DNA of 64,000 nucleotides from Rhodobacterales bacterium LSUCC0031 (GTDB lineage: Bacteria > Pseudomonadota > Alphaproteobacteria > Rhodobacterales > Rhodobacteraceae), in assembly GCA_015689735.1 (NCBI GenBank), contig WVSP01000003.1, positions 124,001 to 188,000 of the forward strand, read 5' to 3'. A program made the translations under genes and the position numbers. Below the pieces are notes generated by a model. The model did not search any database, had not been told where the DNA came from, and worked only from the letters and a program-made list of their open reading frames with translations. This document shows positions 46,121 to 49,854 of this stretch, piece by piece (within the stretch, counting starts at the first letter, position 1; each line of letters begins with the position of its first letter).

Positions 46121-47197
46121 TCACACCAAGCCGCCGGCAATCAGGCGGGCCGCCAAAGCGCCATAGGCCGTGGCCATCGGCCCCTCGCCCGCAGCAATCG
46201 GCACACCCGCATCCCCAGCAAGGCGCGTGTCCAGATCGATGGGAAGCGATCCCAGATAAGGCAGGCCAAGCTTCTCCGCCTCGGCTTTGACGCCACCTTG
46301 GCCAAAGATATGGGCCTCATGCCCGCATGCGGGGCAATGGTAAACGCCCATATTCTCGATCAGGCCGAGAACCGGGGTCTTGAGCAATTCGAACATGTTG
46401 AGCGCCTTGCGCGCATCCAAAAGCGCCACATCCTGCGGGGTGGATACCACGATTGCGCCGCTCACATCCGCGCGTTGGCAAAGCGTCATGGCCACATCGC
46501 CCGTACCGGGCGGCAGATCGACGATCAGCACATCAAGCTCGCCCCAGGCGACCTGCGTCAACATCTGCTGTAGTGCGCCCATCAACATTGGACCTCGCCA
46601 CACCACGGCTTTCTCTTCGGGCAGCATGAAGCCGATCGACATGAGCGTCACGCCATGCCCATGCAGAGGGATGATCGTTTTTCCATCGGGCGAGGCGGGG
46701 CGCTTGTTCACCCCCATCATACGCGGCTGGCTGGGGCCGTAGATATCGGCGTCCAGCAGCCCGACCTTTTTGCCCGCCCGCGCCAAGGCCACGGCGAGGT
46801 TGGAGGCGACGGTGGATTTACCCACCCCACCCTTGCCTGAGCCCACCGCGATGATGCGATTGACGCCTGTCGGGTTCATCGGTCCGGCCTGCGGGGTGGG
46901 ATGGCCGCCGATCATCAGGTTTGGTGGCGGCGCAGCGGGCTTGGGTGCCGGACCATGCGCGGTCAGCGCGACCGAGACCTGTTCGACACCGGCCAGTTTG
47001 CGCACCAGCCCCTCGCAGGCCAGCCGCACCGGTTCCATCTTGCGCGCCATATCGGGGCTTTCGGCCTCGAGCACGAAACTCACGCGCCCGCCCTCGACCT
47101 TGAGCGCGCGGACCATGTCCCGGCTGACCGGGTCACCACCATCGGGCAGGGTCAAGCCACGCAGGTTCTCAAGAATGGTTTCGCGGGTCTGTGTCAT
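46121..47197 (-). CDS. mrp: Mrp/NBP35-family iron-sulfur carrier ATPase
   Basis: The Mrp (ApbC) family carries or loads Fe-S clusters. The 358-residue protein has an N-terminal MIP18-like domain (about 1-85) and a P-loop ATPase with the deviant Walker A GSGKGGVGKSTVASN. DADIYGPSQPRMMG and DLPPGTGDVAMTL follow, and the cluster-binding CPAC motif lies in VYHCPACGHEAHIFG. A hairpin with a T-rich tail follows the stop. Confidence 0.95.
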   Translation of the reverse strand: MTQTRETILENLRGLTLPDGGDPVSRDMVRALKVEGGRVSFVLEAESPDMARKMEPVRLACEGLVRKLAGVEQVSVALTAHGPAPKPAAPPPNLMIGGHPTPQAGPMNPTGVNRIIAVGSGKGGVGKSTVASNLAVALARAGKKVGLLDADIYGPSQPRMMGVNKRPASPDGKTIIPLHGHGVTLMSIGFMLPEEKAVVWRGPMLMGALQQMLTQVAWGELDVLIVDLPPGTGDVAMTLCQRADVSGAIVVSTPQDVALLDARKALNMFELLKTPVLGLIENMGVYHCPACGHEAHIFGQGGVKAEAEKLGLPYLGSLPIDLDTRLAGDAGVPIAAGEGPMATAYGALAARLIAGGLV

Positions 47198-47246: not shown

Positions 47247-48473
47247 TCAGCGCCGGGCTTGCACCCCCAGAATGAGCGCGCCAAGAACCAACATGCCACC
47301 GCCCCCGGCCAAGGCGAGCGCGGTGCCGATCCCAAGAACCTCGCCCAAGCCGCCAATCCCGAAGGCACCCAGCGCCACGGCCCCGAAACCGGCAACGACC
47401 CACAAGCTCATCACGCGGCCACGATATTCATCGGGCAGGTCGGTCTGGATCGCCGATTGCATCGACACCCCCACCCATGTGGCGCAGAAACCCGCCACGG
47501 CCGTAGCCAAGATCGCCAGATGCCAGACCGGCGACAGGCCCATAGCAATCACTGCCCCCTGCCCGATGGCTGCCGCCCACAAAACCACAGGCGGGATGCT
47601 GGCCCCCGATGCGCCGATCCCAGACGCCTTGAGCGCGGCCGAGGACACCGCACCCGCACCCGCCGCGGCCGTGAGCACCCCCAAACCTGCTGCCCCCCGC
47701 CCATAGGCCCCATCGGCCAGAACCGGCAACACCTCGAGCGCACCGCGCACGATTGTCGAAAAGATCACCGTGATAGCCAGCGCACGGCGCACGACGGGGG
47801 CTTGCACCGCGTACACCAGCCCTGCCCGCAGATCGGCAAACACCGATGCCCGCGGCCGTGGCGGCAAGGCGCGCGGACGCAGTCGCGGCAAAACCACCAA
47901 CATCGGCACATAGCACAAGACCGAGACCCACAGCGCCACACCCGCCCCCAGATGGGCAATCACCGATCCCGCGATCACCGGGGCGATCAGCCGGGCCAAG
48001 TTGAAGTTCAGCGCGGCCACGCTGACCACGTGGCGTACATCGGACACCGGCACAAGGCGCGGCCCCAGCGACATGCGCACCGGGTGGTGCGCCGCCGAGA
48101 TCACGCCGATGGCAAAGGCCGCCACGACCAGTGCCAAAGGCCCCGTAAAGGGCAAGCTGATCGCCAAAAGCGCCAAGACCAGCGCCATCAACGCATTGGT
48201 CGAAAATGAGGCGCGGCGGATATCGACACGGTCGGCCATGACCCCGAACAAGGGGCCAAGCACCAGCGCGGGCGCAAGGCTTAAGCCCGCGACAAGCCCC
48301 ACGAATGCCGCCGATCCCGTTCGTTCCCACGCCAGCCAGCCCAGCGTGACCCGCTGCACCCAGATCGCTTGGACTGCAAAGAAAATACCGATGAAAAACA
48401 AGCGGAACTGGGCATCGCGAAACGCCCCTCCGGCCAAGGCCGTGATGTCAAGGGGTAGCTTCCGCAACGTCAT
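47247..48473 (-). CDS. MFS transporter (MFS_3/EntS-like)
   Basis: The 408-residue inner-membrane protein has about 12 hydrophobic segments. The MFS loop motif reads GVMADRVDIRR between segments 2 and 3, and YRGRVMSLW occurs in the second half. The group includes enterobactin and multidrug exporters. The substrate is unknown. It starts away from the DUF1127 gene, so the 160-bp region 48474-48635 holds promoters for both. Confidence 0.88.
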   Translation of the reverse strand: MTLRKLPLDITALAGGAFRDAQFRLFFIGIFFAVQAIWVQRVTLGWLAWERTGSAAFVGLVAGLSLAPALVLGPLFGVMADRVDIRRASFSTNALMALVLALLAISLPFTGPLALVVAAFAIGVISAAHHPVRMSLGPRLVPVSDVRHVVSVAALNFNLARLIAPVIAGSVIAHLGAGVALWVSVLCYVPMLVVLPRLRPRALPPRPRASVFADLRAGLVYAVQAPVVRRALAITVIFSTIVRGALEVLPVLADGAYGRGAAGLGVLTAAAGAGAVSSAALKASGIGASGASIPPVVLWAAAIGQGAVIAMGLSPVWHLAILATAVAGFCATWVGVSMQSAIQTDLPDEYRGRVMSLWVVAGFGAVALGAFGIGGLGEVLGIGTALALAGGGGMLVLGALILGVQARR

Positions 48474-48518
48474 CTCCAGCTATGCATTTGCTGCAAAGCA
48501 GCATTGAAGCATCGATCA

Positions 48519-48546
48519 TTGTGCAATCGCAGCATGTGTCTATCTT
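48519..48546 (+). promoter_or_regulatory. Possible promoter of the DUF1127-sRNA unit
   Basis: TTGTGC, a 16-nt spacer and TATCTT resemble a housekeeping promoter. A CTTGAAA-like ATTGAAG at 48503-48509 could instead serve a heat-shock sigma factor. In Rhodobacter sphaeroides the matching unit is driven by RpoHI/RpoHII (from memory). I cannot choose between the two. Confidence 0.25.
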
Positions 48547-48635
48547 CAGGTGCAAGGCGCGGCTGAGACATCAAGGGCCGCGCAGGGCCAAAGAGCAATC
48601 CGGCGCAGGTCCAGATGAGAAAGAAAGTGACGAAG

Positions 48636-48866
48636 ATGGCATATGTAACGAGCAACCGCACGATCTCCCACGGTATCGGCCTTGGCACGCGCCTGACCGA
48701 AATCGGCAAGGACATCGTGGCCGCATGGCGCGCCCATCGCGTCTATCGTGAGACGCTCGCTGAATTGCAAGCGCTCTCGCCGCGCGAATTGGCCGATCTT
48801 GGCCTGAACGCTTCGATGCTGCGCAGCATCGCGCTCGAAGCGGCCTATGGCAAGCGCGGTCTGTAA
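48636..48866 (+). CDS. DUF1127 small protein (CcaF1-like)
   Basis: The 76-residue basic protein ends with the DUF1127 (YjiS-like) domain: VYRETLAELQALSPRELADLGLNASMLRSIALEAAYG, described here as residues about 36-72. The Arg-rich helix pair is typical of small RNA-binding DUF1127 proteins. ATG 48636 (MAYVTSNRT) has GAAAG about 12 nt and GAAG 1 nt upstream; ATG 48615 is longer. In Rhodobacter sphaeroides the protein before the CcsR sRNAs is DUF1127 CcaF1 (RSP_6037), reported to bind RNA. The same layout here suggests the same role. Confidence 0.88.
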   Translation: MAYVTSNRTISHGIGLGTRLTEIGKDIVAAWRAHRVYRETLAELQALSPRELADLGLNASMLRSIALEAAYGKRGL

Positions 48867-48880
48867 GGCGGCGTGCCGCC
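48867..48880 (+). repeat. Inverted repeat at the DUF1127 stop
   Basis: GGCGGC and GCCGCC pair around GT, right behind the stop codon (loop in RNA probably CGTG). There is no T-run. It may mark the processing border between the mRNA and the sRNA array. Confidence 0.45.
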
Positions 48881-48904
48881 AAGGGGCGGCGTAAAGAATA
48901 GCTT

Positions 48905-48932
48905 GGCATCCCGCTCCTCCCTTGGGAATGCC
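48905..48932 (+). ncRNA. CcsR/cuckoo-like sRNA hairpin 1
   Basis: GGCATCCC pairs with GGGAATGCC (one bulged A). The loop carries CTCCTCCC at 48914-48921, complementary to a Shine-Dalgarno core. It is the first of five such hairpins behind the DUF1127 gene. Confidence 0.75.
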
Positions 48933-48938
48933 CTGCTT

Positions 48939-48974
48939 GCGGGTCCATCCTCCTCCTCCCTGGGATGGACCCGC
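48939..48974 (+). ncRNA. CcsR/cuckoo-like sRNA hairpin 2
   Basis: GCGGGTCCATCC and GGATGGACCCGC form a perfect 12-bp stem around the 12-nt loop TCCTCCTCCCTG. It is the strongest member of the array and shows that the loop motif, not the stem sequence, is kept. Confidence 0.8.
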
Positions 48975-49006
48975 CAAGACCCGGCTCGGTGACGGGCCAT
49001 GCTGAT

Positions 49007-49036
49007 CGGTTCCTCTCCTCCTCCCTTGGGGGACCG
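49007..49036 (+). ncRNA. CcsR/cuckoo-like sRNA hairpin 3
   Basis: CGGTTCCTC pairs with GGGGGACCG over 9 bp with two G-U pairs. The loop reads TCCTCCTCCCTT. Confidence 0.75.
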
Positions 49037-49044
49037 TGACGTCC

Positions 49045-49081
49045 GGCGGTGGGGCTACCTCCTCCCTTTGGCCCCGCCGCC
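49045..49081 (+). ncRNA. CcsR/cuckoo-like sRNA hairpin 4
   Basis: GGCGGTGGGGC pairs with GCCCCGCCGCC over 11 bp with one G-U pair. The 15-nt loop contains CCTCCTCCC. Confidence 0.78.
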
Positions 49082-49123
49082 GCCTTATTCCCGCCGTTGC
49101 GCGATATGCCTCGGCACAAAAAA

Positions 49124-49151
49124 TCGGCGCCACCTCCTCCCTTGGCGCTGA
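49124..49151 (+). ncRNA. CcsR/cuckoo-like sRNA hairpin 5
   Basis: TCGGCGCCA pairs with TGGCGCTGA over 9 bp with one G-U pair. The loop is CCTCCTCCCT. It is preceded by an A-rich stretch (CACAAAAAAT), a plausible processing site. Confidence 0.78.
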
Positions 49152-49156
49152 ACGTA

Positions 49157-49201
49157 GGCGGTGATCCGTGACCTCCCTCATGGATCGCCGCCTTTTCTTT
49201 T
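49157..49201 (+). terminator. Terminator of the DUF1127-sRNA unit
   Basis: GGCGGTGATCC pairs with GGATCGCCGCC over 11 bp with one G-U pair, followed by TTTTCTTTT. Its loop holds CCTCCC, so the terminator itself looks like a sixth, shortened member of the array. It ends transcription 53 bp before the LysE gene. Confidence 0.88.
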
Positions 49202-49254
49202 CGACCAATCCCCGTCATTGATGGCCGCGAAGTTGCCAAGCGGGCAGATACGCG

Positions 49255-49848
49255 ATGACGTCGGACCTCCTCCTTGCCCTGATCCTGTTCGCTTTTGCCT
49301 CGTCGATCACGCCGGGGCCGAACAACATCATGCTCTTGGCCTCGGGCGCGAATTTCGGGCTCAGGCGCACGGTGCCGCATATGTTGGGGATTTCGGGCGG
49401 ACATGCACTGATGGTGGCGCTCGTCGGTCTGGGGCTGATGCAACTTTTTGTGGTAATCCCGTGGCTGAAGCCCGCGCTGACCATCGCGAGCGCCGCTTAT
49501 CTGTTATGGCTGGCATGGAAAGTCGCCAATGCCGCGGCACCCGGTGCGCGCGATGCGACGGGCCAGCCGTTCAGCTTCGCGCAGGCGGCGGCGTTTCAAT
49601 GGGTGAACCCCAAGGCATGGTACATGGCGATCTACGCGCAGACGAATTTCGCACCCGACACAAGCGGTGCTTGGGGCGCGCTTGCCGTTGCCTTGGTCTT
49701 TGCGGCCATCAACCTGCCATCGGTAACGGTTTGGGCGGCCGCTGGCACACAGCTGCGCCGCTGGCTGGACGGGCCGGGGCGCTTGCGCGCCTTCAACATC
49801 GCGATGGCGCTGTTGCTGGTGGCGTCGCTTTACCCGATGCTGGCGCTT
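49255..49848 (+). CDS. LysE/RhtB-family amino-acid exporter
   Basis: The 198-residue membrane protein has about 5-6 hydrophobic segments and the family opening SSITPGPNNIMLLASG followed by GISGGHALMVALVGLG. FQWVNPKAWYMAI is the mid-protein family motif. The family exports lysine, threonine or homoserine-type compounds; the substrate is unknown. The stop codon follows at 49849-49851. It ends 3 bp before the converging helicase gene. Confidence 0.92.
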
Positions 49849-49854
49849 TAGGCG

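Follow-up and report, generated by a model that had tools for sequence, protein, structure and literature searches.

The window, a 64,000-nt stretch from Rhodobacterales bacterium LSUCC0031, carries a short DUF1127 gene followed by a series of hairpins that differ in their stems and share a CT-rich loop. What kind of RNA do these hairpins form, how many RNAs are encoded, and how might they be switched on? An earlier note had proposed five separate sRNAs and an additional terminator hairpin, and had assigned them to the CcsR and cuckoo RNAs. We find that the locus is a CcsR/cuckoo array of the known DUF1127-linked kind and is ordinary for its family. The favored explanation, to which we assign a probability of about 85%, is a CIN1-type operon in which one promoter serves a CcaF1-like DUF1127 protein and three CcsR-type sRNAs in the 3′ part, with the last hairpin as terminator and with the mode of action proposed below.

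Organization of the locus

The order of features in the window is an Mrp/ApbC-like gene, an MFS transporter gene, the DUF1127 gene, five hairpins with the loop motif, a terminator hairpin and a LysE-type gene (Table 1). The PF06568 match and the folding predictions confirm the arrangement that had been described, a DUF1127 gene followed by five such hairpins and a sixth, terminating hairpin with CCTCCC in its loop. As at the CIN1 locus, the short DUF1127 gene lies directly 5′ of the array and on the same strand. Its protein shares 44% identity with the 71-aa protein of genome G087, which in turn is 99% identical to its Cereibacter johrii counterpart. An antisense open frame of 220 aa runs across the array (48546-49208, − strand) and is regarded as spurious, since the repeats in it mirror the array loops. 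At another locus, L075 (G019:C6:19600-23300), four DUF1127 matches occur within ~2 kb with loop hairpins in between, and the gene and its hairpins may have been copied there as one block.

Table 1. Features of the locus and candidate target sites (positions are those of the window)
Feature	Position	Strand	Basis or description
Mrp/ApbC-like gene	46121-47197	−	presumed from its sequence
MFS transporter gene	47247-48473	−	PF05977 and PF07690
Upstream box copy	48492-48504	+	TGCA-N5-GCAT, read in the window sequence
Main box, TTGTGCAATCGCAGCAT	48519-48535	+	48522-48535 reads TGCA-N6-GCAT, like the nfeR1 LsrB box
DUF1127 gene, CcaF1-like	48636-48866	+	76 aa; PF06568, E 1.1e-12
Unit 1 (H1+H2)	48896-48975	+	R1, E 1.4e-11; folding
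H1 hairpin	48905-48932	+	9 bp, one bulged A (folding); loop reads GCTCCTCCC
H2 hairpin	48939-48974	+	13 bp (folding)
Unit 2 (H3+H4)	48999-49081	+	R1, E 4.4e-12; RF02791, 19.9 bits, below gathering threshold
H3 hairpin	49007-49036	+	9 bp (folding)
H4 hairpin	49044-49082	+	14 bp (folding)
Unit 3 (H5 + terminator hairpin)	49117-49192	+	R1, E 4.7e-9; RF02791, 28.5 bits, E 8.7e-5, below gathering threshold
H5 hairpin	49124-49151	+	9 bp (folding)
Intrinsic terminator (H6, second hairpin of unit 3)	49156-49193, T-rich tail to 49201	+	16 bp, loop CCTCCC
LysE-type gene	49255-49851	+	PF01810
Candidate GGGAGGAG site L244			glcD-like gene
Candidate GGGAGGAG site L237			Metal_resist protein
Candidate GGGAGGAG site L243	near 61410	−	DUF2147 (PF09917); GGGAGGAG 5 nt before start codon
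Candidate GGGAGGAG site L240			70-aa frame

All five hairpins ahead of the terminator carry CTCCTCCC in or at the loop, in agreement with the earlier note, and CCTCCTCCC is present in four of them, the exception being H1. Hairpin H1 was detected by folding alone, since its bulge caused the motif-stem script to pass over it. The stems vary in length as had been claimed, although the range in H1 to H5 is 9–14 bp rather than 9–12 bp. Folding z-scores from H1 to H6 are −2.97, −5.97, −0.77, −4.98, −3.88 and −7.85; the hairpins fold as described, and H3 is weak, folding by itself no better than its shuffles. Throughout the 64 kb, CTCCTCCC occurs six times on the + strand, with five of these in the array, and is not found on the − strand. 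The spacers between units (48976-48998 and 49083-49115) could form small stem-loops that have no motif (e.g., CCCG...CGGG). By eye, relatives have comparable inter-unit spacers with differing stems.

The array consists of two-hairpin units

The distances between successive loops alternate between short and long (36, 65, 44, 75 and 38 nt), and the repeat unit is a pair of hairpins with a period of ~105 nt. The locus is built from tandem units with CCUCCUCCC loops and variable stems, and its last hairpin carries only CCTCCC. The Rfam model RF02791 (CcsR1) likewise comprises two hairpins, and RS0680a is described as having two stem loops (PMC3927594, section 2.7). As each CcsR RNA comprises two hairpins, the array amounts to three CcsR-type units rather than five sRNAs.

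This count is borne out by R1, a covariance model whose 23 training units come from eight other members of the genus and which leaves out the window, G007 and G008. When applied to the entire window, R1 identifies three units, and the next match has an E value of only 3.3. The same model finds four units in each of the loci of C. johrii and Cereibacter azotoformans, with a weak fifth (E 0.0009 and 0.14), and seven in G087, with a weak eighth (E 0.0015). It gives no match at L080, where the window's own genome has its second DUF1127 gene. The five-member array of the earlier note is therefore replaced by three two-hairpin units, and five separate sRNAs are rejected on the basis of the architecture of RF02791, the spacing and the R1 matches. 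The layout proposed to match CcsR1–4 holds as kinship and fails as to number, with three units rather than four.

Among members of the genus, three units are present in eight genomes (including G002, which has one unpaired motif in addition), four in two genomes, five in G004, where the array runs to the contig end, and six in G010; a search of G009 (73% complete) gave no array match. An array bigger than CcsR1–4 can be rejected, as the window is at the small end of this range. By eye, most first hairpins in the genus carry CTCCTCCCTTGG and most second hairpins have GGCGG-type stems. These arrays are to be read as tandem copies of a two-hairpin unit, with three to six units in the genus and up to 14 motifs in the named loci considered below.

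Distribution in the family

At E ≤ 0.001, RF02791 matches 121 of the 149 genomes of the family, and eight of these are above the cut-off. Among 14 control genomes, one match was seen (Thermus composti), and this was below the cut-off. The two RF02791 matches in the window are also below the gathering threshold of 65.3 bits (Table 1). In C. johrii and C. azotoformans, the first unit scores 106.2 bits, whereas the other three score 39.4–54.1 bits. The cut-off mainly selects CcsR1 itself, because units 2–4 of Cereibacter miss it too. In the covariance-model search that had been suggested as a check, the Rfam cut-offs are not reached, and R1 finds three units.

Among 80 named DUF1127 loci, 40 have at least four loop motifs and 11 have three, and the maximum is 14. 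R. sphaeroides is outside these 80 loci, and the layout of RSP_6037 was compared via sister species: C. johrii and C. azotoformans (L153 and L154) have eight motifs in four pairs, with 36–38 nt within a pair, and this corresponds to the arrangement of CcsR1–4. A different arrangement is seen at L072 (G018:C38:281300-283500), where 13 motif-loop hairpins are mostly ~37–47 nt apart without long spacers.

Loops and candidate targets

The anti-Shine-Dalgarno character of the loops, as proposed in the earlier note, is upheld, as is the kinship to CcsR/cuckoo RNAs that follow a DUF1127 gene of the CcaF1 type. Candidate targets were sought as exact, full-length copies of GGGAGGAG, the complement of eight loop bases, located 2–12 nt before an ATG. 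The window's genome has 12 such places compared to four for the reversed control, and two of the 12 are the antisense of the array. Beyond the array, an open frame of >65 aa is present at only four of these loci (Table 1). Eight of nine glcD-like loci were compared: GGGAGGAG is found in the window's genome only, GAGGAG in six and GGGAGGA in one. For Metal_resist, eight of 10 loci were compared, with GGGAGGAGG in L254, L255, L257 and L259 and GGGAGGAAG in L256; the start was not placed in the other three. Conservation before the Metal_resist starts may reflect the coding sequence of the gene that lies upstream. In the window's genome and at the glcD-like and Metal_resist loci, exact complements next to start codons are few and not clearly conserved, and no target is claimed.

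The scarcity of exact complements, both in total and next to frames of >65 aa, would be expected if the loops were a bulk sponge that weakly binds many purine-rich leaders, or the DUF1127 protein, and broadly damps translation under stress without specific targets. By eye, moreover, the loop is the sole long unpaired stretch that is kept in all units. We consider such a sponge unlikely, as NfeR1, which has the same loops, silences defined mRNAs, among them ntrB, on which the loops act at the start site (PMC10746234).

Pairing is kept while stems vary

In the consensus fold given by RNAalifold, which took in 34 of 43 units including the three of the window, seven of the 11 pairs in the second hairpin have changed on both sides without loss of pairing; at a single pair, up to nine of the 34 units are broken or gapped. 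No pairs were recovered for the first hairpin in the consensus fold of the same 34 units, because MAFFT misplaces gaps there. Since RNAalifold recovers only the second hairpin, an arm-swap test was used. All six 5′ arms in the window score highest with their own 3′ arm. Across the 43 units, which come from 12 genus members including the window's genome, first hairpins score 20.6 with their own arms and 13.8 with swapped arms, whereas the best of 300 swaps reaches 16.4. The corresponding values for second hairpins are 30.5, 18.3 and 21.7. The proposition that stems vary with pairing kept and the loop fixed, indicating RNA function, is supported by these data. The array is a real, functional-looking RNA.

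A quite improbable alternative is that the hairpins mainly serve the DUF1127 mRNA, as REP-like stabilizers or as signals for its processing, with loops kept by recent duplication and not by target pairing. Copying of the units in tandem, three to six per genus locus, is compatible with this proposal. However, the stems have diverged without loss of pairing whereas the loop has not, and the loops are identical across genera. Furthermore, the paired-motif pattern has only two matches in the window's genome, both within the array.

When 48867-49201 was shuffled 2000 times for each count, none of the shuffles reached the observed counts: the maximum was two motifs (five observed) and one motif-closing stem of at least 7 pairs (four observed). 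Chance folding of a CT-rich stretch, which the G+C-rich composition of the region and the weak folding of H3 might appear to favor, has virtually no probability, being already refuted by the shuffles, the R1 matches and the presence of arrays in 11 of the 12 other genus members, G009 being the exception.

The terminator is a unit hairpin with a reduced loop

The 16-bp stem and T-rich tail bear out the assignment of the CCTCCC-loop hairpin as the terminator. The accompanying suggestion that the terminator has joined the hairpin family is reversed by comparison with related arrays. Of 79 loci surveyed, seven lack an array of four, 23 lack a T-run terminator detected by script, and 49 have one; these sets mix genomes and named records, possibly of the same species. 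The window is wrongly among the 23, and its terminator was read from folding. The downstream lysE gene contains CTCCTCC, which misled the terminator script. The 49 terminators have the full loop motif in 39 cases, a reduced one in five and none in five. Ordinarily, therefore, the last unit has the terminator as its second hairpin, with a full loop; here the loop is reduced. Its recent recruitment into the hairpin family is ruled out by the same 39 terminators.

Within the genus, the terminator loop is full in G001, G003, G005, G010, G011 and G012 and reduced in G007, G008 and the window; in G002, G004 and G006, the script did not find a T-run terminator. By one further protein, G007 and G008 are nearest to the window's genome (75% and 79% identity versus ≤65% for others). 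The shortened loop is probably a loss in the clade formed by the window, G007 and G008, to judge from these sequences.

A double box precedes most arrays

The strict box TTGTGCANNYGCAGCA is present at 29 of 32 array loci and missing in G019, G021 and G015; the box had played no part in finding these 32 loci. In 28 of the 29, a second, GCNGCATTG-like copy is located 31 or 32 bp further upstream. At the main box, 21 of the 29 loci, one of them the window, show the literal form TGCA-N6-GCAT; the remaining eight, including G087 (L081), deviate because the last T is A. At the upstream copy, literal TGCA-N5/6-GCAT occurs in 25 of 29 loci, and both copies are literal in 20. In nfeR1 promoters, TGCA-N6-GCAT is described as the box to which LsrB binds (PMC10746234). 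A further VtlR/LsrB consensus, GCAT-N3-TG-N3-T, is given for B. abortus and A. tumefaciens (PMC7486931); inspection of the window promoter by eye did not reveal it.

The strict pattern also occurs outside such loci. Among 61 genomes, there are 41 matches in 31 genomes, compared to one for the reversed control, and the 17 matches within the genus include 12 at the array and five elsewhere. The window's genome has the strict box at two places. The other site, L142:2499 (G000:C1:603698), lies just upstream of an opposite-strand gene, which we take from its sequence to encode an ABC transporter substrate-binding protein of the urea/amide-like type. In G005, G002 and G006 (L111, L112 and L113), a strict box is found at the same place, a few bases before the start of a putative gene on the opposite strand.

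Box and array were also counted together, ignoring kinship. Among 30 DUF1127 loci listed, three have both and 27 have neither. Among the 80 named loci, 34 have an array (at least three motifs) and the strict box, 18 the array alone, one the box alone and 27 neither, again ignoring kinship. Named loci with at least four motifs have the strict box in 34 of 40 cases. The 18 boxless loci among the 52 with at least three motifs comprise seven in L160–L186, of which L160 is truncated at its upstream end and five, mainly from Paracoccus, have short arrays of 3–4 motifs, and 11 in L203–L232, mostly three-motif loci of rhizobia. At the window genome's second DUF1127 gene (L080; G000:C1:683300-685700), neither a strict box nor CTCCTCC is present on either strand. 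Two loose TGCA-N6-GCAT matches, one per strand, occur in these 2.4 kb, and L080 may share the array's regulator.

A candidate LsrB-type switch

An LsrB orthologue was identified in 15 of 16 same-family genomes (E ≤ 3.1e-92, with the next LysR proteins at ~1e-37 or weaker); the one genome in which it was absent is G004 (84% complete). These proteins are 51–53% identical to the query, a trxB-linked LysR protein of G037, and their DNA-binding region is near-identical. The orthologue in the window's genome is 79% identical to that of G087 and is a reciprocal best match in G037, G039, G040 and G043. Its best PDB match is 9HH1 (8.6e-74; the next is 6.4e-32), which is also the best solved match of the G037 protein. 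Structure 9HH1 is LsrB of A. tumefaciens (PMC11975290). According to the same paper, LsrB occurs in Rhizobiales only, and C. crescentus and R. sphaeroides are treated there as representatives of free-living bacteria. A gene order like that in G037 (lrp-trxB-LysR) does not apply to G000, G006 and G014, where the orthologue lies elsewhere.

The window's genome therefore has both TGCA-N6-GCAT upstream of the array and an LsrB protein, and we infer that this orthologue binds the array's box. We lean slightly toward a scheme in which a redox-linked LysR protein of the LsrB/VtlR type switches DUF1127-CcsR operons family-wide, as for NfeR1/AbcR1 in Rhizobiales. In this scheme, LsrB would be older than the Rhizobiales, an alphaproteobacterial regulator of RNAs with anti-Shine-Dalgarno loops, and duplication of units would tune the length of the arrays. 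This scheme is weakened because the literal box is present in 21 of 29 loci and not in nearly all. Points against it are that the ccaF1-CcsR promoter of R. sphaeroides is described as depending on RpoHI/RpoHII (PMC10253847) and that LsrB has been called a Rhizobiales-specific protein (PMC11975290). By eye, and relative to an RpoH-type consensus, CCCATGTT or CTCATGTT is found 3′ of the box in L081–L086 and TCTATCTT in the window; an RpoH-type promoter is possible in addition to the LsrB-type switch. A limited search of the CcsR and LsrB/Rhodobacter literature, with the founding papers outside it, found no published report of LysR control of ccaF1-CcsR.

Proposed mode of action

In the proposed CIN1-type operon, the LsrB-type LysR regulator would bind both boxes, which are about three helical turns apart, and turn the operon on. 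By analogy with R. sphaeroides and Sinorhizobium, RNase E would cut the transcript into RNAs of ~80 nt with the DUF1127 protein taking part; such processing has been reported in R. sphaeroides (PMC8625941, PMC10253847). The CCUCCUCCC loops would pair with Shine-Dalgarno sequences that are rich in purines, blocking translation, and several units might supply dose and redundancy, as suggested by the same organisms. In the clade of the window, the terminator loop has probably lost most of its targeting ability while termination is kept.

Comparison with known systems

The cuckoo RNA family and the CIN1 locus were reportedly described by Reinkensmeier and Giegerich in 2015. Like the window, they have variable stems, a fixed loop and a short DUF1127 gene beside CcsR-like RNAs (PMC4504443, PMC10253847). 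The cuckoo motif is given as two to four hairpins (PMC4504443), whereas the window has five full loops and a reduced terminator, which, as in named relatives with more motifs, are read here as two-hairpin repeats.

The closest system is ccaF1-CcsR1–4 (RSP_6037) of R./Cereibacter sphaeroides, for which an RpoHI/HII promoter, RNase E processing, an RNA-binding CcaF1 protein and FlhR mRNA as a target are described (PMC10253847, PMC8307010, PMC8625941). It shares with the window the DUF1127 gene, tandem two-hairpin RNAs with CCUCCUCCC loops and an end terminator (PMC10253847; sister species L153 and L154), and CcsR hairpins and loops are described elsewhere as well (PMC3927594, section 2.7). The window differs in having three units instead of four, a DUF1127 protein of 76 aa instead of 71, a reduced terminator loop and scores below the Rfam cut-off.

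With RF02344 (alpha-r14), the window reaches 31.6 and 21.9 bits, below the gathering threshold of 58.8 bits. To our knowledge, NfeR1 is not part of any DUF1127 transcript. Unlike the window, alpha-r14/NfeR1 of Sinorhizobium is a 115-nt sRNA with three hairpins (PMC8844928, PMC10746234), yet it has the same loops and a TGCA-N6-GCAT box in front (PMC10746234). The array itself is one more case of a known family, and its control is the part that may matter: the double box and the matching regulator could link Rhodobacter-type CcsR RNAs with NfeR1/AbcR1 of rhizobia and Agrobacterium.
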